Shown here: one piece after another, positions 26,597-42,370 of the stretch
Layout of the letters: the number at the start of each line of letters is the position of its first letter
Numbering within the stretch: the first letter of the stretch is position 1
Assembly (NCBI RefSeq): GCF_029543125.1
Contig: NZ_JARQWW010000005.1
Location: 186,001 to 250,000 of the forward strand
Length of the DNA: 64,000 bases
Direction: 5' to 3'
Source: Caulobacter segnis
GTDB lineage: Bacteria; Pseudomonadota; Alphaproteobacteria; Caulobacterales; Caulobacteraceae
Translations under genes and position numbers: made by a program
The notes under the pieces: generated by a model
The model's database searches: none
Told to the model about the DNA's origin: nothing
Seen by the model: the letters and a program-made list of their open reading frames with translations, nothing else

Positions 26597-28095
26597 CAGT
26601 GGTCCCCCTGCGGCCGAACAAACTTGCGCACGGCCTCGGCCAGGGCTGCGCGATTACCTTCTTCCGTGAAGACCGAATGGCCGCCCGGAAACTGAGCCGC
26701 GGTCAGGCGGTCGGCGGGCACGCCGGCCTGATCCAGGGCGTAGCGCCCGCGATAGGCGGGCGTGGTGATGTCGTAGAGGCCCGAGGCCCAGAACAGCCGC
26801 AGCTTCGGATCAGCCTGCATGGCCTGGCCGAGGAAGACATTGGCGTCGCCCATGCCCTCATGGTTCCAGGCGGCGTTCACCTCGAGGTTCAGCGAGTTGT
26901 AGGTCTCGGGGCTCTCGAAGCCGAGGGTCTTGCGGAAGTAGATCTCCACCGCCGTGGACTCGCCTTTGCCCACAGGCACGGCGATGTCGGGGCGGACCAG
27001 CTTGGGCGCGGGCGGCGCCTTCTCCAGCGAGAAGGACAGGCCCGGATCGTCATAGGGCGGACGCTGCGCCGGGGCGTCGAGGCGGCGCGTGGCGCGGCCG
27101 TCCAGCTGGCCGGTGCGCAGCCCCTGATCCTTCAGCAGCTCGAACATGAAGTCGCGGTTCGACAGCCGCAGATCCTTGGACAGGATGTAGTCGGCGGGCA
27201 GGCCGATCATCGCCGACATCTTCGCGGCGACCTTGCGCTTCTCGTCGGCGGGCAGGCTGGAGCCCTGGATCAGCGCGGCCACATAGTCGGTGCGCGCATA
27301 GCGGACCGCTTCGTCGTAGGTCTGCTCGACCGAGCGTCCACCACGGTCGATGCGCTGGTGCCACCACGCCACCGTGGCGAAGCTGGGCAGGCTGGTGACG
27401 AAAGGCATCTCTCGCCCCTCGCTCGCGCCCACCAGAGCGAACAGCAGCACCCCGTCCAGCTTGAGCGCCGCCGCGTCCTTGGCGATCAGGGCCGCCCGCG
27501 TGGTGCCATAGCTCTGGCCCAGGATATAGCGCGGCGAAGCCTCGCGGCCGTGGGCCTTCAGCCACTGCTCGATCACATAGCGGACCGAGGCCGCGTCGCC
27601 CGTGCGGCTCCAGAAGGCCTTGCCGTCTTCCGGCGTGAAGGGGCGGCTGTAGCCGGTGCCGATGGGGTCGATGAAGACCAAGTCCGTGGCGTCGAGCGGG
27701 CTGACCGGATTATCGATCAGCGTCTGCTCGGCCCCCTCGCCCACCCGTCGCTTCGGTCCGAAGGCGCCGAAGTGCAGCGGGGTCGTCGAAGCCCCAGGCC
27801 CGCCGTTGAAGATGAACATCACCGGCCGCGCGGCGCCCTTAACATCCGTGCGGATGTAGGAGGTGGTGACGATGGAGCCCTTGGCCGCGCCCGAAGCGCT
27901 CGGGACGAAGGTCTCGGCGACCACCGCCCGATAGGCCACCTTCTGATCGTTGAAGCGGCCCGTATGTCGCGTCTCCGCCGACAAAGGGCGACGCTCGGCC
28001 GAGGCGGCCGGCGAAGTCTGCGAGACCTGCGCATGAAGGGGTCCGGCAGAGCCCAAAAGCAGCAGAGCGGCGAGAACGGCGGGTCGTAGCACCAT
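26596..28095 (-). CDS. Secreted S10 serine carboxypeptidase
   Basis: 499 residues with a Sec signal (LRPAVLAALLLLGSAGPLHAQ). Oxyanion motif FIFNGGPGAST, nucleophile ILGQSYGTTRAA, catalytic Asp in WASGLYDITTP and His in FPGGHSVF: the complete S10 triad. ATG 28095 has GGGGGA 7-8 bases upstream; a longer frame begins in the leader. First gene of the operon S10 - amidohydrolase - M61 - M61 - APC. Removes C-terminal residues from peptides in the periplasm. Confidence 0.88.
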   Translation of the reverse strand: MVLRPAVLAALLLLGSAGPLHAQVSQTSPAASAERRPLSAETRHTGRFNDQKVAYRAVVAETFVPSASGAAKGSIVTTSYIRTDVKGAARPVMFIFNGGPGASTTPLHFGAFGPKRRVGEGAEQTLIDNPVSPLDATDLVFIDPIGTGYSRPFTPEDGKAFWSRTGDAASVRYVIEQWLKAHGREASPRYILGQSYGTTRAALIAKDAAALKLDGVLLFALVGASEGREMPFVTSLPSFATVAWWHQRIDRGGRSVEQTYDEAVRYARTDYVAALIQGSSLPADEKRKVAAKMSAMIGLPADYILSKDLRLSNRDFMFELLKDQGLRTGQLDGRATRRLDAPAQRPPYDDPGLSFSLEKAPPAPKLVRPDIAVPVGKGESTAVEIYFRKTLGFESPETYNSLNLEVNAAWNHEGMGDANVFLGQAMQADPKLRLFWASGLYDITTPAYRGRYALDQAGVPADRLTAAQFPGGHSVFTEEGNRAALAEAVRKFVRPQGDH

Positions 28096-28217
28096 CTGAA
28101 ATTCCCCCGATCCGTGAGTGAACACGGAGTCTGCATCATCCTACCCGTAGGCCTCGGCATTTCTATTCGAAGTACGATCGTCGCCGGGTGGATGTGACAA
28201 ATTCAATGCAGAAACGA

Positions 28218-28248
28218 GGCGTCGGCGCGCATAGCCTATGCCGACGCC
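28218..28248. repeat. Nine-base inverted repeat enclosing a putative Lrp-type site
   Basis: GGCGTCGGC at 28218-28226 and its complement at 28240-28248, between two divergent S10 genes. The same arms recur in the hairpin at 49634-49662. Inside lies the perfect palindrome GCATAG-C-CTATGC. Confidence 0.5.
28227..28241. promoter_or_regulatory. Shared dyad, site 1 (GCGCATAGCCTATGC)
   Basis: Located between the divergent S10 genes, 132 bases upstream of the start at 28095 and 90 bases upstream of the start at 28331. It matches three further sites at 39198, 40487 and 41034, all in control regions of the peptidase locus. Confidence 0.5.
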
Positions 28249-28330
28249 CCTCAGCCAAACCTGCCATTCGAAAAGAAAATCCGTCGCGCCTTGGCTAGGC
28301 TGATTGTGAAGCGATGAAATGGGGGACGGG

Positions 28331-29815
28331 ATGACTTCGATCACCAAGCGTCAATGGCTGGCGGGCGCGGCTTCGGTCGTGGGACTGACGGCGGCGAGCG
28401 GAGCTTTCGCGCAATCTAGCGCAGAGGCCGGCGGCCCCTTCGTCACCCGGCACAGCGGCGTCTTCAACGGCCGCAAGCTCAACTACACGGCCACGGTCGG
28501 CGCGACGATCCTGCACGACGCCGCCGGAACGCCGACCGCGCGGTTCGTCAGCACGTCCTATGTTCGCGACAAGGTCGATGCCGCGCGCCCTGTCATCTTC
28601 GCCTTCAACGGCGGCCCGAGCAGTTCCTCCCAGACCCTGCACATGATGGCCCTGGGCCCGAAGCGTCCGCCGGTGGCGCAGGACCCGCGCACGCCTGAGC
28701 CGACGCCGAGCCTGATCGACAACACCTACAGCGTCCTCGACGCCGCCGACATCGTCATGGTCGACCCGGCCGAGACGGGCTTCAGCCGCGTCCTGCCCGG
28801 CGGCAAGCGGGAGTACTTCTATTCCGTCGAGGGCGACTCCCAATCGGTGTCGGACTTCGTGACCGCCTGGTGCAAGGCGAACGGCCGCGAGGCCTCGCCG
28901 AAGTACGTGCTGGGTGAAAGCTACGGCACCCTGCGCGCCGCCTTCATGGCGGGACAACTGGCCAAGACCATGCCGCTGGACGGCGTGTTCATCTTCGGCC
29001 AGGCGGTGAACATGATCGAGACCAGCCAGCGGGCGAAGAACGCGGTCTCCTACGCCACCAACATCACCGCCCTCGCCGCCATCGCCGCCTATCACGGCAA
29101 GGCCGAGCGCAGCGACCGGCCGATGAACCAGATCATCGACGAGGCCTACGCCTTCGGCATGGACGAGTATCTGCAGGCCCTGGTTCGCGGAAACGACCTG
29201 CCGGCCGCCGAGCGTCAGGCCCTGGCCAAGAAGCTGCAGGCCATCACCGGGATCAGCGCAGAATACTATCTCGCCAACGGCCTGGTGATCACCAAGATGG
29301 CCTTCCAGCGTGAACTGCTGAAGGCCGACGGCCTGATGCTGGGCATGTACGACGCCCGCTATGTGGGCCCGCTGCCCAAGCCGGGCGAGCGCCTGCCCGA
29401 CCCGTCGTTCAAGCCCATGGCGGCCATCGGCCCGATGATGCTGGAGCACTACGCCAAGAACCTGGGCGTGACCTGGCCGGCGTCCGACTACCGCTCCTCC
29501 GCCCCGCAGACGGGCGGCTGGACCTGGGCGCCGACGCTGGGCCCGGGCGGGCCGTTCTACGACTTCGACTATCCGTCGCAGATCACCACGGCCTTCGAGG
29601 CCAATCCGAAGTTCCGCCTGATGGTCGGGACCGGCATCTTCGACCTGACCACCACGGTCGGGCCGGCGCGCTATCTGGTGACCCAGAGCGACTATCCGCG
29701 CGACCGGGTCATCCAGCGTCAGTACGTGGGCGGCCACATGGCCTACACCAACGAGCCGACCTTGAAGGCCTTCAACGACGACGTGCGCACCTTCGTCACC
29801 GGCGGGCGGTTCTGA
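28331..29815 (+). CDS. Secreted S10 serine carboxypeptidase
   Basis: 494 residues. Signal MTSITKRQWLAGAASVVGLT ending near AFAQ, with a Tat-like KRxWL stretch. IFAFNGGPSSSS (Gly-Pro-Ser variant of the oxyanion motif), nucleophile VLGESYGTLRAA, Asp in GTGIFDLTT, His in YVGGHMAY. Start choice: ATG 28331 with GGGGGA 4 bases upstream; ATG 28319 is also in frame. Single gene on the plus strand, divergent from the S10-led operon and convergent with the S10 at 29838. Confidence 0.87.
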   Translation: MTSITKRQWLAGAASVVGLTAASGAFAQSSAEAGGPFVTRHSGVFNGRKLNYTATVGATILHDAAGTPTARFVSTSYVRDKVDAARPVIFAFNGGPSSSSQTLHMMALGPKRPPVAQDPRTPEPTPSLIDNTYSVLDAADIVMVDPAETGFSRVLPGGKREYFYSVEGDSQSVSDFVTAWCKANGREASPKYVLGESYGTLRAAFMAGQLAKTMPLDGVFIFGQAVNMIETSQRAKNAVSYATNITALAAIAAYHGKAERSDRPMNQIIDEAYAFGMDEYLQALVRGNDLPAAERQALAKKLQAITGISAEYYLANGLVITKMAFQRELLKADGLMLGMYDARYVGPLPKPGERLPDPSFKPMAAIGPMMLEHYAKNLGVTWPASDYRSSAPQTGGWTWAPTLGPGGPFYDFDYPSQITTAFEANPKFRLMVGTGIFDLTTTVGPARYLVTQSDYPRDRVIQRQYVGGHMAYTNEPTLKAFNDDVRTFVTGGRF

Positions 29816-29837
29816 ACCACCCGCCGACGCGCGGCGC

Positions 29838-31319
29838 TCAGCCGAGGGCCGCGCGGTAGAAGGCGCGAAGATCGTCCGTCGCCTGGCTGCGGCTGGCGGC
29901 GTCCGAGAACACCGCGTGTCCCGCCCGATAGACCCGGTGCGTGAACCGCCCCTTGGGCAGGTCGGCGGCCAGATACTCCTCCAGCGGCCCCGCATAGGGT
30001 ATCGTCAGGTCGTAGTAGCCGAGCATCAGGGTCACCTTCAGGCCCGGATCACCCGCCATCAGATCCTTGAACATCAGCGGCATGGCCACCGGCCCACGCG
30101 CCACCTTGTGGTTCCACTGCTCGTTGGCCGGATAGGACAGGCGGATGTAGCCGCTGGCCGGGCGATAGCCGAACTCGTTCCGGAACAGCCCCTCCACCGC
30201 CTTGGTCAGGTCGTACTTCAGCGTGTAGGGCGAGGTGGACGGATCGTCATAGGGCGCCTTGCGCGTATCCGTGATGCTGCGCGGCGCCTTGGCCCGCGCG
30301 TCGGAGCCGCCGATGCGCTCCCCGGTGTCGGACAGCAGCTCGCGGACGAAACGATCGCCAGGAACTTTCAACCCGCCCGCCTGAACCGCCTCGACGGAAA
30401 AGCCCGTGAAAGCGGCCACTTGCGCGGCGATCTTCGAGGCTTCGGCTGGCGGCAGAGCGGCGCCCTTGGCCAGGGCTTCGGCATAGGGACCAGACGCGAA
30501 GCGATGTGCGTCGCCGGCCACCGCCTCGACGGTGCGGTCGCCGTAAGCGCCCTTCTTATGGAACCATGCGGCGGCCGCTTGGCTGGGCAAGGCGCGTACG
30601 GCCGGGTCGGCCGGCCCCGCCAGCGGCGCGCGGCCCCGCGTCGATGTGGAAGGCGAGACCAGCACCACGCCGTTCATCTTGATCGGCTGCGCGCCCTGCG
30701 CCAGCAGCTCGGTGACAAAGCCGACGCGCACGCCGGCATAGCTCTCGCCCACCAGGAACTTCGGAGAGGCCGTGCGGCCGTTTTCGGCGAGCCAGGTCCG
30801 GATGAAGGCGGCGACGGCACGCGCGTCCTCCTCCACGCCCCAGAACTCGCGCTCGGACCCTGGCGTCAGGAAGCGGCTGTAGCCGACGCCCGGCGGGTCC
30901 ACGAACACCAGGTCGCTCTGGTCCAGCAGGCTGTGCGGGTTATCGACAAAGGCGAAACCGTCGGCGCTGTCGGCGTTGACCGTGATGCGCGGTCCCAGGC
31001 CCTCGCGCAGGGCGATGGTGGCGCCGCCGGGGCCGCCGTTGAACAGGAAGGTCACCGGCCGCTTGGCCGGGTCCGCCCCCTCCTCCAGATAAGCCGCCGA
31101 GAAGATGGTCGTGCCCGGCGCGCCGACGGCGTTGGGCAGCGCGATCTCCGACGCCACGCCCCGATAGGCGATGGAGCGTCCCCGGATCTTGACCGTCCCG
31201 CGCATGGTGGCGGGGACCGGAACGCCGGCCGCCTGAGCCGCCGCCGGCGAAAGGCTTCCGGCGCCGAGCCAGAAGATCGAGGCGGCGGCGCCGAACGCCC
31301 TTCGCGTGGGTCGGGACAT
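29838..31319 (-). CDS. Exported S10 serine carboxypeptidase (Tat signal)
   Basis: 493 residues; RPTRRAFGAAASIFWLGAG is a good twin-arginine signal. FLFNGGPGGATIALREGLGP, nucleophile LVGESYAGVRVG, Asp in LGYYDLTIP, His in RAGHAVFSD. Last gene of the long minus-strand run that begins with the TonB receptor at 39035 (receptor, two ornithine cyclodeaminase homologues, two amidohydrolases, this peptidase). 23 bases separate it from the amidohydrolase at 31343. Confidence 0.87.
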   Translation of the reverse strand: MSRPTRRAFGAAASIFWLGAGSLSPAAAQAAGVPVPATMRGTVKIRGRSIAYRGVASEIALPNAVGAPGTTIFSAAYLEEGADPAKRPVTFLFNGGPGGATIALREGLGPRITVNADSADGFAFVDNPHSLLDQSDLVFVDPPGVGYSRFLTPGSEREFWGVEEDARAVAAFIRTWLAENGRTASPKFLVGESYAGVRVGFVTELLAQGAQPIKMNGVVLVSPSTSTRGRAPLAGPADPAVRALPSQAAAAWFHKKGAYGDRTVEAVAGDAHRFASGPYAEALAKGAALPPAEASKIAAQVAAFTGFSVEAVQAGGLKVPGDRFVRELLSDTGERIGGSDARAKAPRSITDTRKAPYDDPSTSPYTLKYDLTKAVEGLFRNEFGYRPASGYIRLSYPANEQWNHKVARGPVAMPLMFKDLMAGDPGLKVTLMLGYYDLTIPYAGPLEEYLAADLPKGRFTHRVYRAGHAVFSDAASRSQATDDLRAFYRAALG

Positions 31320-31342
31320 GGCGGTCTCCTTGTCTGGAACGG

Positions 31343-32641
31343 TCAGGACTCGGGCGCGGCCTTGGCCGGACGCACCGCGTCGATGTAGCGGTCGCGAAGC
31401 TGGCGGCTGCGCGAGGTCATGGGTTGCTCGACGCCGCCGATCAGCACCCTGCGGGCCACCGTGGTGGTCTCCAGCGGATCACCGCTCCACAGCACGAGGT
31501 CGGCGTCCTTGCCTGGCGCGATGGAGCCTTTCGCCCCGTCGAAGCCGAAGATGCGCGCCGGATTGACGGTGATCGCCGCCAAGGCGGCCTCCCACGGCAG
31601 GCCGTAGGGCACCGTGCGGCCGGCCAGATAGCGCGGCGTGCGGATCAGGAAGACGATCCGAGCGATGCCTGGCTTGAAGGCGACCAGTACGCCCGCCTGA
31701 TTGAGGATCGCGGCGTTGCGATAGGTGGCGTTCAGGCTGTCGAAGGTGAAGGCCTGGTTGTCCTCGGCGTCGAGGATCACCGGAACCTTGGCCGCGGCGA
31801 TCTCCTTCGCCAACAGCCACGCCTCGGCCCCGCCCGAGATGACGATGCGGATGTTCTCCTCGCGCGCCGTCGCCAGGGCGAGACGGATGTCAGAGGCGCG
31901 GTTCGCCTCGACGACCAGCGGCTGGCGGCGGTCCACGATCGGCGCCAGGGCCTCCATGTCGGCGCGGGACAGCGACAGGGCCTCCAGCTTGCCCTCGTCC
32001 ACACGGCCTGCGCGGTAGTCGCGGGCCAGGGCCAGGGATTGCTTGATCAGGCCGCGCCAGGCCCCTCGCCCGCCTCCGGCGGTCGAGGTCGAACCTTCAC
32101 CCAGCGCCGTCAGTACAGCCACGTGCGGAGCCACCAGATAGTCGCCGCTGTCGGAAAGCTGGATCACCCCCAGCTGACCACCGAACACCTTGCGCGGCGC
32201 GCCTGCCGCCGCCGAAGCGGGAGTGGGCGCGAGCACGGCGGCGGTGACGCCTTCCACTCGCGCCTCGGGAATCTGCGGCGAGTTCGGATCAACGTCATAG
32301 GCCACGTCGAACCCGGCGCTCAGGCGAGGATCGGTGGAGCCGCGGCCGGGCCATCCGCTGCCGATGGTGTCATTTAGGCCGAGCGGCGAGATGGTCGCCA
32401 CCAGACCAGGCGTCAGGGTCTGTCCCGCCGCGTCGATCACACGGGCGTCAGACGGGATGCGGACGGATGCCCCGACGTCGACGATCTTGCCGTCCCGCAC
32501 GAGAACGGCGCCGCGCGGCAGGTCCCCGGCCGCGCCGAGGCTGACGACACGGGCGTTGACGATGGCCAGGGTTTCGGCGGCCGCAGGTGATGCGGCGGCC
32601 AGGACCAGCAGAGCGGCGAGGATGGACTTGCGGCGGATCAT
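31343..32641 (-). CDS. Secreted amidohydrolase-like protein lacking metal ligands (pseudoenzyme)
   Basis: 432 residues with Sec signal (SILAALLVLAAASPAAAE). The composite beta domain is well kept at both ends (LAIVNARVVSLGAAG; KGSIAPGKDADLVLWSGDPLE), so it belongs to the imidazolonepropionase-like amidohydrolases. But the position of the HxH motif reads TLTPGLVATISPLGLND, with no histidine, and I find only one His in the whole protein. Catalysis by the usual metal centre is therefore unlikely. ATGA overlap with the active-looking homologue upstream suggests the two are made in equal amounts and may form a heteromer. Confidence 0.8.
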   Translation of the reverse strand: MIRRKSILAALLVLAAASPAAAETLAIVNARVVSLGAAGDLPRGAVLVRDGKIVDVGASVRIPSDARVIDAAGQTLTPGLVATISPLGLNDTIGSGWPGRGSTDPRLSAGFDVAYDVDPNSPQIPEARVEGVTAAVLAPTPASAAAGAPRKVFGGQLGVIQLSDSGDYLVAPHVAVLTALGEGSTSTAGGGRGAWRGLIKQSLALARDYRAGRVDEGKLEALSLSRADMEALAPIVDRRQPLVVEANRASDIRLALATAREENIRIVISGGAEAWLLAKEIAAAKVPVILDAEDNQAFTFDSLNATYRNAAILNQAGVLVAFKPGIARIVFLIRTPRYLAGRTVPYGLPWEAALAAITVNPARIFGFDGAKGSIAPGKDADLVLWSGDPLETTTVARRVLIGGVEQPMTSRSRQLRDRYIDAVRPAKAAPES

Positions 32642-34053
32642 TTCGACGCCTCCGGACGCTTCTGAAGTCCCAGTTCGAAATCGGAGCGCGGCTGCGACGG
32701 CGGCTTGCTCCGGTCGTGCATGACCGCACCATCGACGAGCACGAGATCGGGCAGGCTGTAGACGCTGAACGGATCGGCGCTCCACACCACCACGTCAGCG
32801 TCCTTGCCCACCTCCAGCGAGCCGGAGCGCGCTTCGATGCCCAGGATTTTCGCCGGGTTGAGGGTCAGCCAGCGGATGGCGTCCTCGTAGGTCACGTTCA
32901 GACCCGCCTCGCGCGCGGCGGTCATGGCCCGCGACGCCTCCTGATTGAGGTGCTGCATGATCATGACGTTGTCGGAGTGCATGGCGACCACGCCGCCCGC
33001 GGCCTCGAGGATGCCCGCGTTCTCCATGATGGAGTCGTAGGCCTCCATCTTGTAGCCGGACCAGTCGCCGGCCCAGGTGGCGACCGGGATGCCTTCACGC
33101 GCCAGGACCGGCGCGATCTTGAAGGCCTCCAGCGCGTGGTGGAAGGCGGCGATCTTGAAGCCGAACTCATGCGACAGATCGATCATCTGCAGCATCTCGT
33201 CGGCGCGGTAGCAGTGGATCTGGACCTTGACCTGGCCTTCCAGCGCGGCGGCCACGGTCTCCAGGGCCAAGTCGCGGCGCGGCGCCTGGGCGGGCTGGTC
33301 GGCCGCGACCTTGCGGCGATACTCGCGAACCTGATCGGCATAGGCGGCTGCAGCGGCGAAGGTGGTGCGATAGCCGAGCATGCCGCCCGCGCGGGTGCCG
33401 GGCTTGCCGGGACCGCCGCCCGTGGGGTTCTCGCCGCAGGCGATCTTCAGGCCATAGGGCGCGCCCGGCATCTTCATGCCCTGCGGCGAAAGCGCTGGGG
33501 TGGTCTTCAGGGTCACGGTGCGGCCGTTGAACAGGTTGGCCGATCCGGGAAGGATCATGGTGGTGGTGACGCCCGCCGCCAGAGCCCGCTCGAACATCGG
33601 GTCCTGCGGCCAGACGGCGTGCTCGACCCAGATGCCGGCGGCGTTGGGACCGGACTCGTTGGAGCCGTCGCCATTGGCCTCGCCCGGGCTGGAGCCGACA
33701 CCGATGTGCGAGTGCGGATCGATGATGCCCGGGGTCACCCAGCGCCCCTTGGCGTCGATGACCTGCACGCCCGCGGGGACCGCCACATCGCGACCCACGG
33801 CCGCCACCTTGCCGTCACGAAGCAGCAGCACGCCGTTGTCGATGCGCGGGCCGGCTGCGGTCAGGATGGTCGCGTTGATGATCGCCGTCGGCACGGACGG
33901 CGCCGGACGGTAGGTGGACGGAAACGCATCGACGCCGAAGCTGGGATCGAGACCCGCGCGCGGCGCTGAAGGCTGGGCCAGCGCCCCGCCCGCACATCCG
34001 GCAAGCACCGCGCCCGCCAGCAAGGCGGCCCGCCGCCATCGACGCATGGTCAT
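32638..34053 (-). CDS. Amidohydrolase, predicted lipoprotein
   Basis: 471 residues. The signal ALLAGAVLAGC has a lipobox (LAGC), so it is probably anchored to a membrane. Metal ligands present: TPGIIDPHSHIG, VQIHCYRAD, AAFHHALEA and VVAMHSDNV, matching the binuclear amidohydrolase pattern; the late composite domain is GSLEVGKDADVVVWSADP. Start at 34053: AAGGAG lies 9 bases upstream and the preceding stop is one base away (TAGGATG), so it is coupled to the cyclodeaminase gene. Partner of the ligand-less homologue downstream. Substrate probably a dipeptide or N-acyl amino acid, by context. Confidence 0.83.
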   Translation of the reverse strand: MTMRRWRRAALLAGAVLAGCAGGALAQPSAPRAGLDPSFGVDAFPSTYRPAPSVPTAIINATILTAAGPRIDNGVLLLRDGKVAAVGRDVAVPAGVQVIDAKGRWVTPGIIDPHSHIGVGSSPGEANGDGSNESGPNAAGIWVEHAVWPQDPMFERALAAGVTTTMILPGSANLFNGRTVTLKTTPALSPQGMKMPGAPYGLKIACGENPTGGGPGKPGTRAGGMLGYRTTFAAAAAYADQVREYRRKVAADQPAQAPRRDLALETVAAALEGQVKVQIHCYRADEMLQMIDLSHEFGFKIAAFHHALEAFKIAPVLAREGIPVATWAGDWSGYKMEAYDSIMENAGILEAAGGVVAMHSDNVMIMQHLNQEASRAMTAAREAGLNVTYEDAIRWLTLNPAKILGIEARSGSLEVGKDADVVVWSADPFSVYSLPDLVLVDGAVMHDRSKPPSQPRSDFELGLQKRPEASK

Positions 34054-34054
34054 C

Positions 34055-35002
34055 CTACGCAACTCCTTGGGTGTAGAGCGCCTGGGCGGCGGCGAGGTCC
34101 TGCACGACATGGCCCAGCGACTTGTAGACGGTGATCTGATCCGGCGACTGGCGGCCTTCAAGGTCGCCTGCCAGAACCTGGCCGATCTCGCCGACTAAAT
34201 GATCATCGGTCACGAGGCCCGCCGCCTTGGCGAGCAGGAATTCCGCCCCCTGGGCCAGAACGCCCTCGCGGCTGTCGGCGATGAAGCGGGAGCCGACGAC
34301 CACATCGTGATCCGCCTCGGTCGGCCCGGCATAGCTGGAGCCTACGAGATTGACGTGCGTCCCCGGCGCCAGCCACGCGCCCCGCAGTATCGGCTCACGC
34401 GCGGCGCTGACGGTGCAGATGATCTCCGCGTTCTCGACCGCGGCCTGAGATGAAGACGCGGCCGCAACCTCAATCCCAAGCTCGGTTTTCAGCTTGTCAG
34501 CCAGGCTGGCGGCGCGCTCGGTCGAGCGGCCCCAGACGGTGATGGACGACAGGGCCCGCACCTTGCTGATCGCCCGCGCGTGGGTCAGCGCCTGTTCGCC
34601 ATAGCCGAGGATGGCGAGGCGCGAAGCGTCGGGCCTCGCCAGGGTGTCGGTGGCCACCGCGCTGGCGGCGGCGGTGCGGATGGCGGTGATCTCGCCGGCA
34701 TGGGCGACGCAGACCGGCGCGCCGCTTTCGCCATCAAACAGGACCACGACGCCCTGATGGGATTGGAGGCCCTTCTCGAAGTTCTCGGGGAATACGCTGA
34801 CCAGCTTGGCGCCAAACACCGCCCGCTCGCCGAGCGCGCCGGGCATGATGCCGAACATGCGCCCTGCCCCGAGCGGAAGGATCGAGCGCAGCAGTTGCCG
34901 CGTCTCGCCCCTGGAGAAGGCGATCATCGCGTCCCGGACCAGCGGGATGCAGACTTCATAGGTCAGGCGGCGAGCGACTTCCTCACGGTCGATGACACGC
35001 AT
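34055..35002 (-). CDS. Ornithine cyclodeaminase / mu-crystallin family enzyme
   Basis: 315 residues, NAD(P)-dependent, cytoplasmic. Substrate-side GAKLVSVFPEN with the conserved Lys, Rossmann segment RLAILGYGEQALTHARAI, and EIICTVSAAREPIL then HVNLVGSSYAG. Family activities include ornithine cyclodeaminase, alanine dehydrogenase and ketimine reductase. Tandem duplicate of the next gene upstream: start and stop share one base (TGATG). It would act on amino acids or imines liberated by the exported peptidases. I cannot tell the substrate. Confidence 0.85.
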   Translation of the reverse strand: MRVIDREEVARRLTYEVCIPLVRDAMIAFSRGETRQLLRSILPLGAGRMFGIMPGALGERAVFGAKLVSVFPENFEKGLQSHQGVVVLFDGESGAPVCVAHAGEITAIRTAAASAVATDTLARPDASRLAILGYGEQALTHARAISKVRALSSITVWGRSTERAASLADKLKTELGIEVAAASSSQAAVENAEIICTVSAAREPILRGAWLAPGTHVNLVGSSYAGPTEADHDVVVGSRFIADSREGVLAQGAEFLLAKAAGLVTDDHLVGEIGQVLAGDLEGRQSPDQITVYKSLGHVVQDLAAAQALYTQGVA

Positions 35003-35961
35003 CAGGCGGCCCTCCCGTTCAGCCAGGCGACGCAGGCGATGTCCTGCACCGCATGACCCAGCGACTTGTAGACAGTGACTTGCTCGTCCCCCGTTCGGCC
35101 GGGGATTTCGCCAGACAGTATCTGGCCGATCTCGGCGGCGATGTGGTCGTCGCCGACCAGACCCGCCGCCTTGGCGCGCAGGAACTCTCCCCCGTGAACC
35201 AGGACGTGCTCGCGGTGATCGACCACATAACGGCTGCGCGCGACGAGGGCGCCGTCCGTCTCGGCCTGGGCGGGGCCGCTGGAGCCCACGAGGTTCACAT
35301 GTGCGCCCGGCGACACCCAGCCGCCCAGCAGGATTGGCTCGGCGGCCGCCGTCACGGTGCAGATGATGTCCGCCCCCTCGACCGCCCGTCGGGCGTCGCA
35401 GACGGCCATGCAAGCGACGCCGGTCAGACGAGTCATGCGCGCTGCGAACTCCGTGGTTCGGCCGGCTTCACGCCCCCACACCACAACGCTTTCGAGATCG
35501 CGCACCAGGGCGATGGCTTGAATATGGGTTTCGGCCTGACGTCCCATGCCCAGAACCGCCAGACGCCGCGCATCGGGCCGCGCCAGGGCGTCGGTGGCGA
35601 CCGCGCTGGCGGCGGCTGTGCGGATAGCGGTGACCTCGCCGGCGTCGGCCAGGCAGACAGGCGCGCCGTCAGCGCCGTCGAAAAGGACAACGAGGCCCTC
35701 ATGAGCCTTGCGGCCCCGACCATCGTTGAAAACGCTGACAAGCTTGGCGCCGAACGCCCCGGGGCTTTCGAAGGCGGCCGGCATGATGGCGAAGGTGCGC
35801 CCAGGGCCCAGGCCGATGAAGGACCGCAACTCTTGGCGGACGCGGCCGGTGGACAGGGCGATCATTGCCTCGCGCACCAGGGGCATCGCCGCCTCATAGG
35901 TCAGGGCCGACCGCACCGCGGCGACATCCAGAACCCGAAGGCCGGCGATGGTCGCATCCAT
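35002..35961 (-). CDS. Ornithine cyclodeaminase / mu-crystallin family enzyme (second copy)
   Basis: 319 residues, same architecture as its neighbour: FGAKLVSVFNDGRG, RLAVLGMGRQAETHIQAI (the nucleotide loop GMGRQA against GYGEQA in the sister), DIICTVTAAAEPIL, HVNLVGSSGPAQAE, and the family ending TVYKSLGHAVQDIA. The differences near the nucleotide loop and after GSS suggest diverged substrate or cofactor preference. AAGGGA lies about 10 bases upstream of the ATG. A 98-base gap containing a hairpin separates it from the TonB receptor. Confidence 0.85.
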   Translation of the reverse strand: MDATIAGLRVLDVAAVRSALTYEAAMPLVREAMIALSTGRVRQELRSFIGLGPGRTFAIMPAAFESPGAFGAKLVSVFNDGRGRKAHEGLVVLFDGADGAPVCLADAGEVTAIRTAAASAVATDALARPDARRLAVLGMGRQAETHIQAIALVRDLESVVVWGREAGRTTEFAARMTRLTGVACMAVCDARRAVEGADIICTVTAAAEPILLGGWVSPGAHVNLVGSSGPAQAETDGALVARSRYVVDHREHVLVHGGEFLRAKAAGLVGDDHIAAEIGQILSGEIPGRTGDEQVTVYKSLGHAVQDIACVAWLNGRAA

Positions 35962-35990
35962 CTTGAACTTATCCCTTAATCAACCAGACG

Positions 35991-36016
35991 GACGGCGCGC
36001 CCTTTGACGCGCCGTC
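35991..36016. terminator. Hairpin after the TonB receptor gene
   Basis: GACGGCGCG (35991-35999) and its perfect complement (36008-36016) with an 8-base loop, 44 bases after the receptor stop on the minus strand. No T-run follows, so it may reduce rather than stop read-through into the cyclodeaminase genes. Confidence 0.4.
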
Positions 36017-36059
36017 GCCGGATAGTCCGGGCCGGACCGTAGCCCGACCCGTAGCAAGC

Positions 36060-39035
36060 TTAGAAGCTGGCTTTCAGGCCGACGAAGTAGCGGCGGCCCA
36101 GGATGTCGCCGTAGCTGCGCGTCGGGAACGACGGCTCCTCGTCAGTCAGGTTGGTGACCCCGCCCCGGATCGTATAGTTCCGGAAGTCGTAGGAAGCGGC
36201 CACGTTGTGGCGCAGGTTTTCCTTCACGTTCGGGGTCGGCCAGTTCTCGATGGTCGAGGTGGCGTTGAACTTCACCGCCGACAGATAGTTGGCCGTATAG
36301 GTGAAGCGGAACGGCCCCTTGCGGTAGCGCATGTCGAACTTGGCCGACAGGTCCGGAGACGGGCCAAAGTCGGTGGTCGAGGACGTATTGTCGATCCGCG
36401 TGCGGTCGACGCCGGTCACCGACATCTCATACTTCTCGATGCGCGTGGCTTCGAGATTCAACTCCAGTTCGCCCAGATCGCGGTCGCCGAAGTAGCGGCC
36501 GATCGGGAAGGCGTAGTTGACGTTGTAGACCTCGCCGCGGAACGTGATGCTGCCCGCATTGAAGGTGGTCCGCAGGGCCGTCAGCGTGTTGCCCTGGGCG
36601 TCACGCGTGAAGGTGCTGCAGATGTCGGCCGGCTGCGGCGAGCTGTCGTAGCAGGTCGACATGAAGCTTTCCGGCGAGAAGGCCGAAAGGCCATCCGTCA
36701 GGTCCACCTCGATGCGGTCGGCGACAATGCTCAGGCCCGGGATGAAGGTCGGCTGGAACACGAACCCGAACGTCCAGGTCTTGGAGACCTCGTTGCGCAG
36801 GTCGGGATTGCCGCCCGTCGTCACGTTGGCGACGCTGAAGTTCTCCGCCTGATTCTGGAACGTCGACAGCGGACCGTAGCCGGGGTTGGCGGCGAACAGG
36901 GCCTGGCAGTTAGCCAGACGCACCGACGGGTTCGGGCCGTTGGCGATCCGGTCCGCGTCGCAGGGGTCAAAGCCGGTGTTGCTGAGAGCTGTGCGTTGCG
37001 GCGCGAACAATTGCTCCAGCGTGGGAGCGCGGAAGTTGCGGCTGCGCGAGACGCGAGCGGTCAGGCCCTGGAAAATCTCCCAGCGGCCGCCCAGGCCCCA
37101 GATGTCCTCCGTGCCGGCGATCGAGTGATCGACACGGCGGAAGGCGCCGTTCAGTTCAACCGAGCGGGCGAACGGCAGGCTGAAGTCGCCGCCCAGGACG
37201 GGCACCAGGATTTCGCCCGAGAGCTCGTCGGTGTTGTACTTGCCGCTCGTGGCCGCCGTAGGCACCTGCGAGCCGATCAGGCCCAACCGGTTGGCGGTCA
37301 TGGGCTTGAACTTAGCCTCTTCCGAGCGGTGCTCGTAAGCGGCGCTGAACTGCACGGCGCCGGCCGGCAGGTTGAAGAGGTCGCCGCCGATGGTGGCCAG
37401 GAAATCGCCTTGGGTGTTGAGGTATTCCTCCCCAGCTCGGATCGTCGAGTAAGCGCGCGCTTCCGGCGACACGTTGCCCACGCCGAACGGATTGATCGGG
37501 GCGCAGTTGGGGTCGTCGTTGGCGGTCGTCGCGTCAGCGTTGATGCCGCAGACGATGGCGCCCGCGCTGTTGCGAACGGCGTTGATCGCGTTGTTGAAGC
37601 GCGCGGTATAGACGCCGTAGCCCTCTTCCTCGCCCGCCGTCTGGGCGAGGCTGTAGGACAGGCTCCAGTAGAAGTTGCGATCAGCGTAGTCGAAGTCGCC
37701 TTCCAGCGAGAGCGCCGCCCGCACCGTGTCGGTGCGCGAGATGACCTCACGGGTCGGCAGAAGGTCGGTCCAGAACTTGGACAGGGTCAGCGGCGCGCCT
37801 GCTGGGCCAAGCACCGCGGTCACGGCCGGAGACAGGTAAGGGTTTGTGCGCGAGACGCTGATGGCGCCCGAACCGCTGGCGGCGTTGTTCAGGACCGTGT
37901 TGCTGGCCTGATTGCCGTAGGGATCACGGCCTTCGACGCGCGACACGAAGAACTCGCCCGACAGCTTGACGCGGTCGGTGAGGTCGTAGTGGCCGATCGC
38001 CGTGCCGTTCCAGCGCTCGACGCCGGTGAACAGCGCAGCGAGCTCCTGGTAGGGATTGCCGTCGCCGCCGCTGGTGAAAGGCGGGACGTTCGGGTTTTTC
38101 AGGGTGCCGATGTCATAGGCGATCAGGCCCGTGCCGGCGGCGTTGAACTGCTGCGGAATCCCGTTGACGCGATAGATCGAGCTGGCGAACGGCGGGCCCG
38201 GATTGAACAGCACGCCGTTGGCGTTGAAGCTCACAAAGCGCGAGTTCAGGTTCTCGATCAGCGAAGGAATGCCGTCCGAATTGCTCGTGTTGGCCGGATT
38301 GTTGACGTTCACGCGGCCCAGGTTGGAGCGCGGACGGTCATAGTCGAGCAGCGAGTCCGTCTTGGACCACTCGAAATTGAACGCCACGTTGCCGCGATCG
38401 TCGGCGAAGTTGCGGCCGCCGGTGACGCGCACGCTCGGCGTCTCATAATCGTTGCGCGAAGAGATGCCGTACTGGAGGTCGACCTCCAGACCTTCGAAGT
38501 CGTCACGCAGGATGTAGTTGACCACCCCGGCGATGGCGTCCGAGCCGTAGACGGCGGCGCCGCCCGCCTGGGCGACTTCGACGCGGGCGATAAGGCCCGC
38601 CGGGATGACGTTGGTGTCGACCGTCTGGTCGCCCAGGCCCGAGGACGAGGTCACCATGCGGCGGCCGTTGACCAGGGTCAGGGTGCGCCCGGCGCCGAGA
38701 CCGAAGAGGTTTGGAAACTGCTGGCCGTTGCCCGCCGCCGAGCCGCTGCCGGCGGCCATGGCGAATTGCGGCATGTTGGCCGTCAGTTCGTTGAGCGCCT
38801 GGCCGACCTGGATGAAACCACGGTCCTGCATCGCCTGTGCGTCGATCACCGCGACCGGAGCCTCGGTCGTGGTTTCGGCGCGACGAATGCGCGAGCCGGT
38901 GACGACGATTTCTTCGATCGCCACATCATCCGCCGCCTGAGCGAAGGCGGATTGAACCGGCACGGCGGAAAGCACGCCGGCGCCGACCATCATCGTAGAA
39001 GCGCAGAGCCAACCGCGCATAGAAAAACGCTTCAT
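36060..39035 (-). CDS. TonB-dependent outer-membrane receptor
   Basis: 991 residues. Signal peptide to about AFAQA (residue 34), TonB box region IEEIVVTGSRIRR, plug domain (EAPVAVIDAQAMQDRGFIQV to GRTLTLVNGRRMV and VEVAQAGGAAVYGSDAIAGVVNYIL, in parts), then a large barrel ending YFVGLKASF. This is the Caulobacter/Sphingomonas-type receptor used for large organic ligands rather than a siderophore type. GGGGGA sits 6 bases upstream of the ATG. As first gene of a run of amino-acid and peptide enzymes it probably imports oligopeptides; that is inference. Confidence 0.9.
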   Translation of the reverse strand: MKRFSMRGWLCASTMMVGAGVLSAVPVQSAFAQAADDVAIEEIVVTGSRIRRAETTTEAPVAVIDAQAMQDRGFIQVGQALNELTANMPQFAMAAGSGSAAGNGQQFPNLFGLGAGRTLTLVNGRRMVTSSSGLGDQTVDTNVIPAGLIARVEVAQAGGAAVYGSDAIAGVVNYILRDDFEGLEVDLQYGISSRNDYETPSVRVTGGRNFADDRGNVAFNFEWSKTDSLLDYDRPRSNLGRVNVNNPANTSNSDGIPSLIENLNSRFVSFNANGVLFNPGPPFASSIYRVNGIPQQFNAAGTGLIAYDIGTLKNPNVPPFTSGGDGNPYQELAALFTGVERWNGTAIGHYDLTDRVKLSGEFFVSRVEGRDPYGNQASNTVLNNAASGSGAISVSRTNPYLSPAVTAVLGPAGAPLTLSKFWTDLLPTREVISRTDTVRAALSLEGDFDYADRNFYWSLSYSLAQTAGEEEGYGVYTARFNNAINAVRNSAGAIVCGINADATTANDDPNCAPINPFGVGNVSPEARAYSTIRAGEEYLNTQGDFLATIGGDLFNLPAGAVQFSAAYEHRSEEAKFKPMTANRLGLIGSQVPTAATSGKYNTDELSGEILVPVLGGDFSLPFARSVELNGAFRRVDHSIAGTEDIWGLGGRWEIFQGLTARVSRSRNFRAPTLEQLFAPQRTALSNTGFDPCDADRIANGPNPSVRLANCQALFAANPGYGPLSTFQNQAENFSVANVTTGGNPDLRNEVSKTWTFGFVFQPTFIPGLSIVADRIEVDLTDGLSAFSPESFMSTCYDSSPQPADICSTFTRDAQGNTLTALRTTFNAGSITFRGEVYNVNYAFPIGRYFGDRDLGELELNLEATRIEKYEMSVTGVDRTRIDNTSSTTDFGPSPDLSAKFDMRYRKGPFRFTYTANYLSAVKFNATSTIENWPTPNVKENLRHNVAASYDFRNYTIRGGVTNLTDEEPSFPTRSYGDILGRRYFVGLKASF

Positions 39036-39058
39036 GCTTTATCCCCCAAAGCTACAGA

Positions 39059-39095
39059 ACCGCGACTACCCCAGACCCCCGTCTGTGCGGTTTTT
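39059..39095. other. Leader hairpin upstream of the TonB receptor
   Basis: CAGAC-CCCC-GTCTG (39072-39085) nested in ACCGC (39059-39063) and GCGGT (39087-39091), with a T5 run at 39091-39095 on the plus strand. On the plus strand it looks like an intrinsic terminator that would stop antisense transcription; on the minus strand it would be in the receptor's 5' leader. Confidence 0.35.
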
Positions 39096-39103
39096 GGCCT
39101 TCA

Positions 39104-39114
39104 ACTAGACTAGT
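39104..39114. promoter_or_regulatory. Palindrome ACTAG-A-CTAGT
   Basis: Perfect 11-base palindrome 69 bases upstream of the TonB receptor start, in AT-richer sequence that probably contains its promoter. Regulator unknown. Confidence 0.3.
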
Positions 39115-39197
39115 CCAACGACCACGGATTTTCTTTGCGTTGTGGCCGCTCTCTCCTCACCGTCGCAAATTGGTCATGCAAGCGGATGGCCCGAGAC

Positions 39198-39212
39198 GCA
39201 TGACCTATGCGC
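39198..39212. promoter_or_regulatory. Shared dyad, site 2
   Basis: Reads GCATGACCTATGCGC on the plus strand (GCGCATAGGTCATGC reversed), 12 of 15 identical to site 1. A second half-site GGTCATGC at 39172-39179 forms an inverted repeat with 39198-39205. Lies upstream of the TonB receptor gene. Confidence 0.5.
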
Positions 39213-39217
39213 ATTCC

Positions 39218-40363
39218 TCAGCCCCGACCGCTTAGGGCTTGCGCCAATCGCGCCAGCCCTCGATCCAAGGCTTCAACGTCGCCGCCCATGCCGATGCGGA
39301 TGTGCCCCGGCAGGCCGAAGAACTCCCCCGGCGCCACGAGCAGGCGATGCTCATCCCACAGCCGCTCCGACAGGGCCAGGGTGTCGTCAACGTCGATCAC
39401 GCGCGGGAAATACATGCAGCCATACGGCGGCAGATCGCCCTCGATCAGCCCGGCTGAGATCATGTCGCGCGCATGGCGCTCCACAACCGATCGCGCCGCG
39501 CCCAAGGCTGATCGCCAATGCGCGTCGAACGGCGCCAGATCCTCCAGAACCAGCGCGGCGACCGCATGAGTCAGCTTGGAGACCGCCAGGTCGCCCTGAG
39601 AATTCGCCGCCTCGATACGCGCGATGTTCTCCCGCGAGGCCGTCAGCCAACCGCAGCGCAGCGTGAAAAGCCCGTGAACCTTGGAAAGACTGTTGGCGAC
39701 GATGAACTGTCGCCCCATGGGCAGGAACGCCTGCGAACCGATGAAGTCAGCATAGACGGCGTCGACGACAACCGGGACCCCTGCCCGTTCGGCCACCTCG
39801 CCGATCCTGGCGAGAACCTCCGGCTGCAAGGCGACGCCTGACGGATTGTGCAGCTGGGTCAGAAGGATCAGGCGGGTGTCCCGGCGAATGGCCGCCGCCA
39901 GCGCATCCGGATCGACCGAGAAATCCGGTGCGCGTCGCGGCAGATCGTCGACGATCGCTCCGGCCTCACGGACCAGCGTGGAAAGAAGATCAAAACCCGG
40001 CGTCTCGACGAGAACGCGCTCGCCCGGACGGACGAAGGCGCGGATCGCCATGGCGATGGCGCTGGTGGCGCTGCTTGCGCTGATGACTTGATCCGGCTCG
40101 ACGCCATAACGCTTGGCGACGGCCGCGGTGACGAAGCTGTTGCCCGACGAGAAGACGCTCTCATAGCGATCCGTGATCGGCTGGGCGAAGGCGCGACGGA
40201 CCACGCCCGCCAGCAATTCCGTGGGCTCGCGGATCGTGGAGTCGAAGAGGATGATTGCTTCGGACTCTTCAGCGGCGCGCGTCAGGGCGGTGCGGACCCA
40301 CCGAGGGTAGCTTTGTCCAGGCGCGGTCGCGGCGCGTTGCGCCCGCACGTTCGAGACTGTCAA
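39218..40363 (-). CDS. PLP-dependent aminotransferase, class I/II
   Basis: 381 residues, cytoplasmic. Fold-type I features: SSATSAIAMAIRAFV before the cofactor pocket, LLTQLHNPSGVAL (the conserved NPSG), VVVDAVYADF with the ring-binding Asp, and the Schiff-base Lys in VANSLSKVHGLFTLRCGW. It transaminates or beta-eliminates an amino acid; substrate unknown. The start appears to be a TTG at 40363 with AGGGGG about 9 bases upstream; no ATG is available before the cofactor-binding region. Divergent from lrp, the classic layout of a local Lrp regulator and its target. Confidence 0.82.
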   Translation of the reverse strand: MTVSNVRAQRAATAPGQSYPRWVRTALTRAAEESEAIILFDSTIREPTELLAGVVRRAFAQPITDRYESVFSSGNSFVTAAVAKRYGVEPDQVISASSATSAIAMAIRAFVRPGERVLVETPGFDLLSTLVREAGAIVDDLPRRAPDFSVDPDALAAAIRRDTRLILLTQLHNPSGVALQPEVLARIGEVAERAGVPVVVDAVYADFIGSQAFLPMGRQFIVANSLSKVHGLFTLRCGWLTASRENIARIEAANSQGDLAVSKLTHAVAALVLEDLAPFDAHWRSALGAARSVVERHARDMISAGLIEGDLPPYGCMYFPRVIDVDDTLALSERLWDEHRLLVAPGEFFGLPGHIRIGMGGDVEALDRGLARLAQALSGRG

Positions 40364-40470
40364 AGCCGCCGCCCCCTATGCTCACTGCCTGTGTGGCGAC
40401 CAAAGAACGCTCGTCACGACACCACAGCGATCGTAATCCGTCGGACTGGATTTTCTTGTCTTTGTCCTGC

Positions 40471-40500
40471 TTGACGCGGAGCGATTGCGCATCCGCTATG
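40471..40500 (+). promoter_or_regulatory. Probable lrp promoter
   Basis: TTGACG at 40471-40476 and GCTATG at 40495-40500, 18 bases apart, about 28 bases before the ATG of the Lrp-family gene. It resembles the alphaproteobacterial housekeeping promoter (TTGAC ... GCTA). The shared dyad site 3 overlaps the -10 element, implying autorepression. Confidence 0.5.
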
Positions 40501-40501
40501 C
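40487..40501. promoter_or_regulatory. Shared dyad, site 3 (GCGCATCCGCTATGC)
   Basis: 13 of 15 identical to site 1. Overlaps the probable -10 element of the lrp promoter, in the region between lrp and the divergent aminotransferase. A GCATAG half-site is also present on the minus strand next to the aminotransferase ribosome site. Confidence 0.5.
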
Positions 40502-40528
40502 ACGAGTAACAAGAAACGGACATAAGCT

Positions 40529-41011
40529 ATGTCGGCGAAACTCGACGCCATCGACCTGCGCATCCTCACCCTCATGCAGCGCGACGCCTCCATGTCGACG
40601 GCGGAGCTGGCCGAACGTGTAGGCCTTTCGCAGTCACCCTGCTGGCGGCGGATTCAGCGCCTGCGCGAGGATGGCTACATCACCTCCGTGGTCGCCATCG
40701 TCGATCCACGGAAGCTCGGCTTCACCATGCAGATCTTCGCTCAGGTGAAGATGACGACCCTGACCGAGAAGGAGCGGGCCGACTTCTACCGTCAGGTCGA
40801 GAACATCCCCGAGATTCTCGAGTGCTGGACGGTCTTCGGCGAGATGGACGCCATGATGAAGATTCTGGCCCCCGACGTGGTCTGGTACCAGGATTTCGTC
40901 TTCGCGGTGCTGCTGAAGCTGCCTGGGGTGGTGGATGTAAGATCCATCGTCACCCTCGCCGAATCCAAGAGCACCACGGCCGTGCCGCTCAAGGCGCGTC
41001 AATTCCGCTGA
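40529..41011 (+). CDS. Lrp/AsnC-family transcriptional regulator
   Basis: 160 residues. Winged helix-turn-helix (about 8-60: AIDLRILTLMQRDASMSTAE, LAERVGLSQSPCWRRIQRLRE) followed by the RAM effector domain (about 70-150) that binds amino acids and builds the octamer. Divergent from the aminotransferase gene and 114 bases upstream of the class V aminotransferase/S10 operon. I infer that it is the local regulator of the peptidase locus because a common dyad overlaps its own promoter and recurs in the other control regions. Confidence 0.9.
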   Translation: MSAKLDAIDLRILTLMQRDASMSTAELAERVGLSQSPCWRRIQRLREDGYITSVVAIVDPRKLGFTMQIFAQVKMTTLTEKERADFYRQVENIPEILECWTVFGEMDAMMKILAPDVVWYQDFVFAVLLKLPGVVDVRSIVTLAESKSTTAVPLKARQFR

Positions 41012-41013
41012 CA

Positions 41014-41029
41014 CGGCGGAGCTTCGCCG
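41014..41029. terminator. Small hairpin after lrp
   Basis: CGGCG-GAGCTT-CGCCG two bases after the lrp stop. No T-run; weak terminator or stabilising hairpin. Confidence 0.3.
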
Positions 41030-41033
41030 AACT

Positions 41034-41048
41034 GCATAAATCATTCGC
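41034..41048. promoter_or_regulatory. Shared dyad, site 4 (weaker)
   Basis: GCATAAATCATTCGC on the plus strand (GCGAATGATTTATGC reversed): 10 of the 11 consensus positions of GCGCAT-N4-TATGC. It lies 78 bases upstream of the class V aminotransferase/S10 operon. Confidence 0.4.
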
Positions 41049-41125
41049 TGAGGACGCGCGGCCGCGCTCTCAACGAAAGGACAATTCGAGGCGCCGCCGA
41101 TAGGCTTTCGGCGCTAGGAGGCCTG

Positions 41126-42370
41126 ATGACGTTCACCCGACGCGCCCTGATCGCGGCAGCCGCCGCAGGCCCTATGGTCGCCGAAAAGGCCGCCGCCCTG
41201 GCGCCCGCGGCCTCGCCCTTGCCGGCCAAGGCCGCCTTCGCAGCCATGCCCTATGTCTATCTGGACGCCGGCTCGACCCACCCCATGCCGCTGGGCGCCC
41301 GCGCGGCCCTTGAAGGCTACCTGCGCTACAAGACCCGCGCCGCCGACGCGCCCGAACTCGACATGGGAGCCAAGGAACGCAACGTCCTGGCGACTTTCGG
41401 CGCGCTGGTCGGCGCGGCGCCGGACGAACTCAGCATCGTGCAGTCGACGACCATGGGCGAGAACCTCGTCCTGCAGGCCCTCGGCTACCCGGACGAGAAA
41501 GCACGCATCGTCACCGACGCCCTGCACTTCTTCGGCTCGTTCTACACCTATGGCGAGATGAAGCGCCTCGGCGTCGACGTCGTGACCCTGCGCATGACGC
41601 GTGACGGACGGATCGACATGGACCAGATGGCCGCCGCCGTGACCACCGGCACGCGCCTAGTGTCGATCAGCGCCGTCTCGACCACCAACGGCTTCGAACA
41701 CGATCTCAAGAAGGTCTGCGACATCGCCCACGCCAAGGGCGCTTATGTCTATGTGGACCTGGCCCACGCGGCGGGGGCAGTGCCGGTGGACCTGCGCGCC
41801 GCCGGCGTCGATTTCGCGGCGACCTCTTCCTACAAGTGGCTGATGGGCGATTTCGGCCTCGGCTTCCTCTATGTGCGCAAGGAAGTGCAGTCGAAGATCA
41901 AGCGCCCCTGGTGGGGCTATCACCAGATCGGCCGCTTCCAGAGCCACGTGTTCCCATATGACGCCCCGGGTGAATCTGTCGCCGACTACGCCGCCCGCCC
42001 CGACGCGACCGGCGTGTTCGCCATGGGCACCACGTCATGGACCGGCGTCGTGCAGCTCGACCAAACCTTGCCCTGGATTCAGTCCATCGGGGTCGAGCGG
42101 ATTCAGGCCTGGCGGCAGCCGCTGATCGACACGGTTCAGACCGAACTGCGCCAGCGCGGCTACGAGCCTCTGACGCCGCAAGACAGCCGCACGCCCCTCG
42201 TCGCCTTCGCTCTGAAGGACGCGCGCGCCAAGCTGGCCGAGCCCCTGTCCAAGGGGGCGGTGCGCATGACCGTCTCGCAAAACCGCTTCCGCGTCTCGGT
42301 GGCGATCTTCAACGATATGAATGACATCGACCGACTTTTGAACGTCCTGCCGAAAGCTCCGCCCGCATGA
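41126..42370 (+). CDS. Exported class V aminotransferase-fold PLP enzyme (isopenicillin-N-epimerase-like)
   Basis: 414 residues. MTFTRRALIAAAAAGPMVAE is a twin-arginine-type signal, which would deliver the folded, PLP-loaded protein to the periplasm. The body is the NifS/isopenicillin-N epimerase fold: VYLDAGSTHPMP, STTMGENLVLQAL, VSISAVSTTNGF, YVDLAHAAGAVPVDL, and the PLP Lys in ATSSYKWLMGDFGLGF. AGGAGG lies 4 bases before the ATG. The stop overlaps the start of an S10 peptidase (ATGA). Epimerase or lyase action on free amino acids or peptide ends is likely; a desulfurase is less likely in the periplasm. Confidence 0.8.
   Translation: MTFTRRALIAAAAAGPMVAEKAAALAPAASPLPAKAAFAAMPYVYLDAGSTHPMPLGARAALEGYLRYKTRAADAPELDMGAKERNVLATFGALVGAAPDELSIVQSTTMGENLVLQALGYPDEKARIVTDALHFFGSFYTYGEMKRLGVDVVTLRMTRDGRIDMDQMAAAVTTGTRLVSISAVSTTNGFEHDLKKVCDIAHAKGAYVYVDLAHAAGAVPVDLRAAGVDFAATSSYKWLMGDFGLGFLYVRKEVQSKIKRPWWGYHQIGRFQSHVFPYDAPGESVADYAARPDATGVFAMGTTSWTGVVQLDQTLPWIQSIGVERIQAWRQPLIDTVQTELRQRGYEPLTPQDSRTPLVAFALKDARAKLAEPLSKGAVRMTVSQNRFRVSVAIFNDMNDIDRLLNVLPKAPPA

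Follow-up and report, generated by a model that had tools for sequence, protein, structure and literature searches.

The 64,000-nt stretch of Caulobacter segnis DNA analysed here (assembly GCF_029543125.1, contig NZ_JARQWW010000005.1, positions 186,001 to 250,000 of the forward strand; hereafter the window) contains a peptidase locus in which a short dyad recurs in the control regions, and these dyads are probably operators of an Lrp-type protein encoded in the same locus. The gene content of the locus comprises S10 peptidases, amidohydrolases, two ornithine-cyclodeaminase-like proteins, a TonB-dependent receptor, a class I/II aminotransferase (AT1), the Lrp/AsnC-family regulator, and a class-V pyridoxal phosphate (PLP) enzyme (AT5) with another S10 peptidase. 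The divergent serine carboxypeptidase genes S10a (26596..28092, minus strand; searched as 26596-28125) and S10b (28331..29815, plus strand) both matched Peptidase_S10. Domain searches also assigned the TonB-dependent receptor (36060..39035, minus strand), AT1 (39218..40363, minus strand), which is divergent from lrp, and AT5 (41126..42370, plus strand), which overlaps the start of the serine carboxypeptidase gene S10d (42367..43920, plus strand) in an operon. The products of two tandem amidohydrolase genes at 31343-33894 of the window gave weak scores to many amidohydrolase models. The lrp gene itself (40529..41011, plus strand) encodes a 160-aa protein, P0001, with the Pfam domains HTH_AsnC-type (PF13404, 1.4e-18) and AsnC_trans_reg (PF01037, 3.7e-15), which places it in the Lrp/AsnC (feast/famine) family. 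The best solved chains for this protein were 3i4p and E. coli Lrp, 2gqq.

The initial annotation had reported a 15-bp consensus, GCGCAT-N4-TATGC, at four places in the locus. The coordinates and strands of all four 15-mers proved exact and the sites are real, but the sequence is better described as a 13-bp dyad, GCAT-N5-ATGC. Exact copies of the 15-bp pattern occur only twice in the 4.08-Mb genome, both within the peptidase locus, and with up to one mismatch it gives 48 matches genome-wide against 15 for the reversed pattern. Within the window no clear excess was seen at up to two mismatches (28 matches against 20.6 expected, with 7 of 100 shuffles reaching 28); there it is position, not number, that marks the motif out. 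The 13-bp dyad has 37 exact sites in the genome. Three of them lie in the four control regions, which total 687 nt and would be expected to contain 0.006 (Poisson P 4e-8). Intergenic and coding DNA were assigned with a simple purpose-written gene caller, by which 94.6% of the sequence is coding. The claim that the motif is absent from the other intergenic regions of the window held for the dyad with up to one mismatch, which was found only at the four cited places in 3,522 nt called intergenic. A motif as frequent inside genes as between them had been named as grounds for refutation. Outside the locus this is how single dyads behave, 28 of the 34 exact sites falling in called genes and 6 between them, while the four control regions are enriched. 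None of those six intergenic dyads has a partner at 31 or 32 bp, and single exact dyads elsewhere in the genome were taken as background rather than as further regulon members.

Related genes surround Lrp relatives of 52-83% identity in Phenylobacterium, other Caulobacteraceae, Nitrospirillum, Maricaulis, Sphingomonadaceae and others. In relatives, the dyad recurs upstream of the same target genes. For dyad ranking, pairing and box-offset counts we used 28 of 34 stretches (the window, L033-L057 and L112-L119). We excluded L047, L052 and L053, which are closely related to loci already included, and also L113, L114 and L116, adjacent stretches that lie beyond the cluster or on its border. Some near-duplicates (for example L043/L044 and L034/L036) stayed in, which means that the counts are not independent of one another. 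Upstream of cluster genes in these stretches (31,983 nt), GCAT-N5-ATGC ranks first among all dyads of the form w-N(0-16)-rc(w) built from 4-mers. There are 33 such sites outside the lrp promoter, where 0.5 are expected from the density in coding DNA (4 in 305,025 nt), and 26 more at lrp. The same arms with other spacer lengths gave only 0-4 sites.

The dyads come in pairs. For exact dyads that lie outside aligned genes, a partner with up to two mismatches is 31 bp away in 37 counts, which include three pairs counted from both ends. All other distances from 14 to 70 reach at most three counts each, 32 bp being one with three. In the window, the dyads at 39167 and 39198 and those at 40489 and 40520 are 31 bp apart, and those at 28197 and 28229 are separated by 32 bp (31 bp in G058/L115). 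A tandem pattern allowing up to two mismatches gave 14 matches in five same-genus genomes with an orthologue of the Lrp protein, 12 of them at the locus, and 27 matches in 70 same-genus genomes without one; the reversed control gave 4 in all 75. The tandem pattern also matches one recurrent, near-identical sequence in eight genomes (G012, G013, G024, G029, G034, G038, G061 and G064), which perhaps lies inside a conserved gene and was taken as background.

A second element stands at a fixed distance from the dyads. Measured from start to start, the box AAGAAAAWCC lies 44 nt past the proximal dyad and 75 nt past the distal one, a register found upstream of the TonB receptor gene, AT1 and S10b, and also of S10a in L038. 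In an open count of 7-mers at all offsets, AAGAAAA at 75 nt ranks second and at 44 nt sixth, among overlapping 7-mers of the box. AAGAAAA occurs 46 times outside aligned genes, and in 31 cases a dyad (up to one mismatch) lies at 44 or 75 nt; no other offset has more than one. A TANNNT −10 element usually follows 13 nt after the box. AAGAAAAWCC itself has 20 copies in the genome, only three of which, those of the locus, are accompanied by dyads. No TANNNT was found 13 nt after any of the other 17, and the box was accordingly rejected as a general promoter class of this genome.

The individual control regions show this layout with varying completeness. Upstream of the receptor gene, read on the minus strand, the distal dyad GCATAGGTCATGC (39198..39210) and a weak partner, GCATGACCAATTT (39167..39179), 31 bp nearer the gene, precede a AAGAAAATCC box (39126..39135, minus strand) and the −10 TAGTCT (39107-39112). 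Between the divergent S10 genes, the dyad GCATAGCCTATGC (28229..28241) is proximal for S10b and distal for S10a, and ACAAATTCAATGC (28197..28209), its partner 32 bp away, is a half-dyad. On the S10b side the AAGAAAATCC box lies at 28273..28282 (plus strand) and the −10 TAGGCT at 28296-28301. The S10a promoter (28138..28166, minus strand) is a weaker case, with a box-like ATAGAAATGC from 28166, at which offset relatives show TAGAA, and a −10 TAGGAT at 28138-28143. AT1 shares its dyads with lrp; its AAGAAAATCC box is at 40448..40457 (minus strand), and the −10-like TACGAT at 40430-40435 is one base off the common register. Upstream of AT5 the dyad GCATAAATCATTC (41034..41046) is weaker and the box AGGACAATTC (41078-41087) degenerate, as is that of S10a, and still the −10 of each, TAGGCT at 41101-41106 for AT5 (promoter 41078..41106, plus strand), is in register. 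This fourth and weakest of the annotated sites gained support from L112 and L115, which have a dyad (up to one mismatch) there, and from the TAGGCT at 41101, whose distance is the one that the other promoters predict; the AT5 upstream alignment consists of seven chosen regions. The partner dyads at 31 bp, the fixed-distance box and the sharing of dyads by divergent genes had all been missed by the initial annotation.

S10b orthologues allowed the register to be followed further. Thirty loci were scanned and two dropped (L238, where the wrong place was scanned, and L260, with no upstream DNA). Of the remaining 28, 13 have a dyad at −99 to −108, and in 12 of these TANNNT is in register, L259 having it a base earlier. 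The other 15 show a different arrangement, weaker dyads or none. In G046 (L201/L233, G046:C1:3346792) the S10b gene is about 19 kb from lrp and keeps the dyad, a AGGAAAAACC box and TAGGCT.

The lrp promoter is built differently. The dyad GCATCCGCTATGC (40489..40501), which is the proximal dyad (slot 2) for AT1, lies over the likely −10 of lrp, 18 nt after TTGACG (40471..40476, plus strand), the likely −35. The partner dyad ACATAAGCTATGT (40520..40532), 31 bp on, overlaps the lrp start codon and is the distal dyad (slot 1) for AT1. We compared 31 lrp upstream regions with at least 69% identity (L047 left out), seeking the best dyad between −46 and −34 only. Of these regions, 22 have an exact dyad, at −39 to −41, 7 have a dyad with one mismatch and 2 a dyad with two; in 21 of the 31 the dyad is preceded by TTGAC at 18 nt. 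Where AT1 is divergent, the dyad at the start codon is in register in 11 of the 12 regions (one base off in L050); where TonB is divergent, it is in register in none of the 8. Short dyads in phase on the helix, about two or three turns apart, that include the regulator's own promoter, as is typical of Lrp/AsnC proteins, are present here at the sequence level. Proteins of this family also form octamers or other multimers that wrap DNA, and respond to an amino acid.

Two further arrangements of lrp genes were observed. Clusters L043, L044, L048 and L049 each contain two Lrp paralogues, both with a GCATNNNNNATGC dyad at −39/−40 from the start, possibly a subfunctionalised pair. In Peristeroidobacter soli (L050:10001-10480) a 75% identical Lrp has the dyad GCATGCGTTATAC at −41 and adjoins ornithine-cyclodeaminase and AT1 relatives of 40-45%; transfer between classes may account for it.

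The module of distal dyad plus box was then searched, independently of lrp, in 390 genomes of the family. With up to two mismatches it gave 133 matches in 67 genomes, and its reverse gave 4. At least two modules were present in 35 of the 38 genomes with an Lrp orthologue (at least 69% identity) and in 2 of the 352 others (Fisher 6e-44, kinship ignored). Within genus group g20 alone the figures were 32 of 33 with the orthologue and 0 of 68 without. Eleven further family genomes have an Lrp relative of 57-67%.

Taken together, these data make a local, autoregulated Lrp-type regulon, as first proposed, the best reading, given the dyads at lrp promoters and at the same targets in relatives and their 31-bp pairing. 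We consider it likely that the dyads are operators of the Lrp protein encoded at 40529, which would activate the S10, TonB, aminotransferase and PLP-enzyme promoters and repress its own. We infer that dimers of an Lrp multimer bind dyads 31 bp, or three helical turns, apart on one face of the DNA, which would be wrapped around the protein, and that an amino acid or peptide acts as effector. The predicted targets are S10b, TonB, AT1, AT5-S10d and probably S10a. If AAGAAA is taken as the −35, the dyads would be centred around −104 and −73, and the next 31-bp step, the third, at about −42, where there is no clear dyad, would end at the box. The presumed −35 of the targets, AAGAAAAWCC, is non-consensus, with the TANNNT −10 placed 17 bp after AAGAAA. 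Since the dyads lie upstream of so poor a −35, transcription probably needs the bound regulator. At lrp, a good TTGAC −35 with one dyad over the −10 region and a second over the start codon points to self-repression. One dyad pair would serve two divergent promoters both at lrp/AT1 and at S10a/S10b (28197/28229). In a more specific version, the Lrp array in exact 31-bp steps would replace the −35 and position RNA polymerase, with one pair read in two registers, or else a further protein would bind at the box as an obligatory partner; we would put this version at somewhat below even chances.

Several observations weigh against this regulon. The start-codon dyad is also kept in 7 of the 11 lrp regions with neither AT1 nor TonB divergent; the idea that it is exclusive to AT1 did not hold, and so it probably matters for lrp itself or for other neighbours too. 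No dyad (up to one mismatch) was found near −40 of the second Lrp copies of Nitrospirillum/Azospirillum (67-69%) or of Brevundimonas L055 (67%). Two of three Brevundimonas S10b loci have one-mismatch dyads with no box in register, and the third has no dyad. Pseudomonas homologues (~48%) have the same recognition helix and, by eye, GAAT-like dyads. G014, G034 and G347 have the orthologue with fewer than two modules, and G102 and G384 have two modules without it. The S10b orthologue (E ≤1e-150) occurs in 31 of the 390 genomes, in every case with this Lrp or a 57-63% relative, and none of the 390 has the peptidase at this threshold without the regulator. The locus thus travels whole, and co-occurrence cannot separate regulator from locus. 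Finally, Lrp similarity was the criterion by which the related loci were retrieved, and several of them come from genomes that also belong to the 390-genome set. As to the Pseudomonas homologues, the ~100 nt upstream of the lrp homologue in L069-L111 (mostly Pseudomonas) show by eye the GAAT-like dyad near −40, often with a TATTTTTTCGCTATGAT stretch. Their shared helix, SQSPCWRRIQR, is partly a product of the search pattern, and none of the other cluster genes was found beside them except for a weak TonB match in L077.

The sign of regulation is not given by geometry alone, and the dyads could be Lrp operators of a protein that is mainly a locus-wide repressor, with a peptide or amino acid lifting the repression. 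DNA wrapped from about −110 to −36 could obstruct RNA polymerase, AAGAAAAWCC would then be no more than a weak −35, or else an A-tract helping the DNA to wrap, and PA2577 offers a precedent as a local Lrp/AsnC repressor of a neighbouring gene, according to the part of PMC8707732 available. We nevertheless find this unlikely: the target dyads lie upstream of the −35, which is non-consensus at the targets and good at lrp, and it is only at lrp that a dyad covers the core promoter. At lrp, conservation of the spacer (mostly CCGYT) almost equals that of the arms, which is what one would expect of a sequence that polymerase reads too, and one might ask whether the TATGC half is simply a housekeeping −10 and the palindrome incidental. 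With the TonB, S10, AT1 and AT5 dyads some 67 or 98 nt before the −10 and having other spacers, both arms conserved and the dyads paired at 31 bp, we rejected the plain −10 box, an explanation with next to no chance of being right.

The link of protein to motif comes from neighbourhood and conservation, and lrp is present in the related loci by selection, so the dyads might be bound by some other regulator, such as the LysR-type protein at 45887. This is very improbable. In the related loci examined, with 10-kb flanks, no match at E ≤1e-10 was listed for the LysR or IlvD proteins; the search for the module, made with no regard to lrp, picks out the genomes that bear the orthologue; and a 31-bp array is what the accessible text of PMC8707732 reports for Lrp proteins.

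Such spacing has parallels. Two or three helical turns separate Lrp sites (PMC2995911, in part), a periodicity of 7-8, 18 or 30-31 bp is usual for many Lrp/AsnC homologues (PMC8707732), and three-turn spacers, of 27-29 bp, are found for E. coli Lrp as well (PMC10201364, available portion). The closest likeness is to the β-alanine-responsive BarR of Acidianus/Sulfolobus, an Lrp-type protein whose gene shares a control region with a divergent aminotransferase gene and which has several dyads spaced by two or three turns of the helix. Ah-BarR is reported to repress its own gene and to activate the aminotransferase gene, apparently with the DNA wrapped around an octamer. BarR is, however, archaeal, and has a 15-bp motif, one site being TTGTACTTTTTACAA (PMC10201364, same portion). 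The window system has bacterial promoters, an AAGAAAAWCC box at a fixed position and, in the same locus, about four more predicted target promoters. Gene order and site positions, as read from the sequence, would fit a dual switch of the BarR type, by analogy and not homology.

E. coli Lrp (NCBIfam NF008370, PDB 2gqq) belongs to the same two-domain family, but the window protein scores 110.9 bits against the NF008370 cutoff of 233 and is not its equivalog. Unlike E. coli Lrp, it has its paired dyads in one locus, with no paired intergenic exact dyad elsewhere in the genome. Caulobacter crescentus is an alphaproteobacterium of the same order as the source of the window. Its PutR is an Lrp-like activator of a catabolic gene and controls putA, and the accessible text of PMC6168545 on PutR contains none of the words 'motif', 'binding site', 'operator' or 'footprint'. 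No proline dehydrogenase domain was found in the 19 neighbourhood open reading frames scanned, the rest of the genome not having been searched for putA. PA2577 of Pseudomonas aeruginosa is also a local Lrp/AsnC regulator, but it represses a transporter gene, and chromatin immunoprecipitation sequencing (ChIP-seq) gave no specific motif for it, as stated in the part of PMC8707732 available.

The mechanism is of an already known kind; in open-licence papers, we did not find this regulon, its motif, its box or its geometry. Very probably, one local Lrp-type protein switches on a peptide-uptake and peptidase cluster while holding its own gene down. For a cluster that was uncharacterised, and a regulator (at least 69% identity) present in 38 of the 390 family genomes examined, this amounts to a precise, testable regulatory code. 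With this code, further genes can be placed in the regulon, S10b of G046 being one example, and the natural variants, with one or two dyads, AT1 or TonB divergent, and 31 or 32 bp between dyads, are a ready mutant set for the study of Lrp arrays at promoters with a poor −35.

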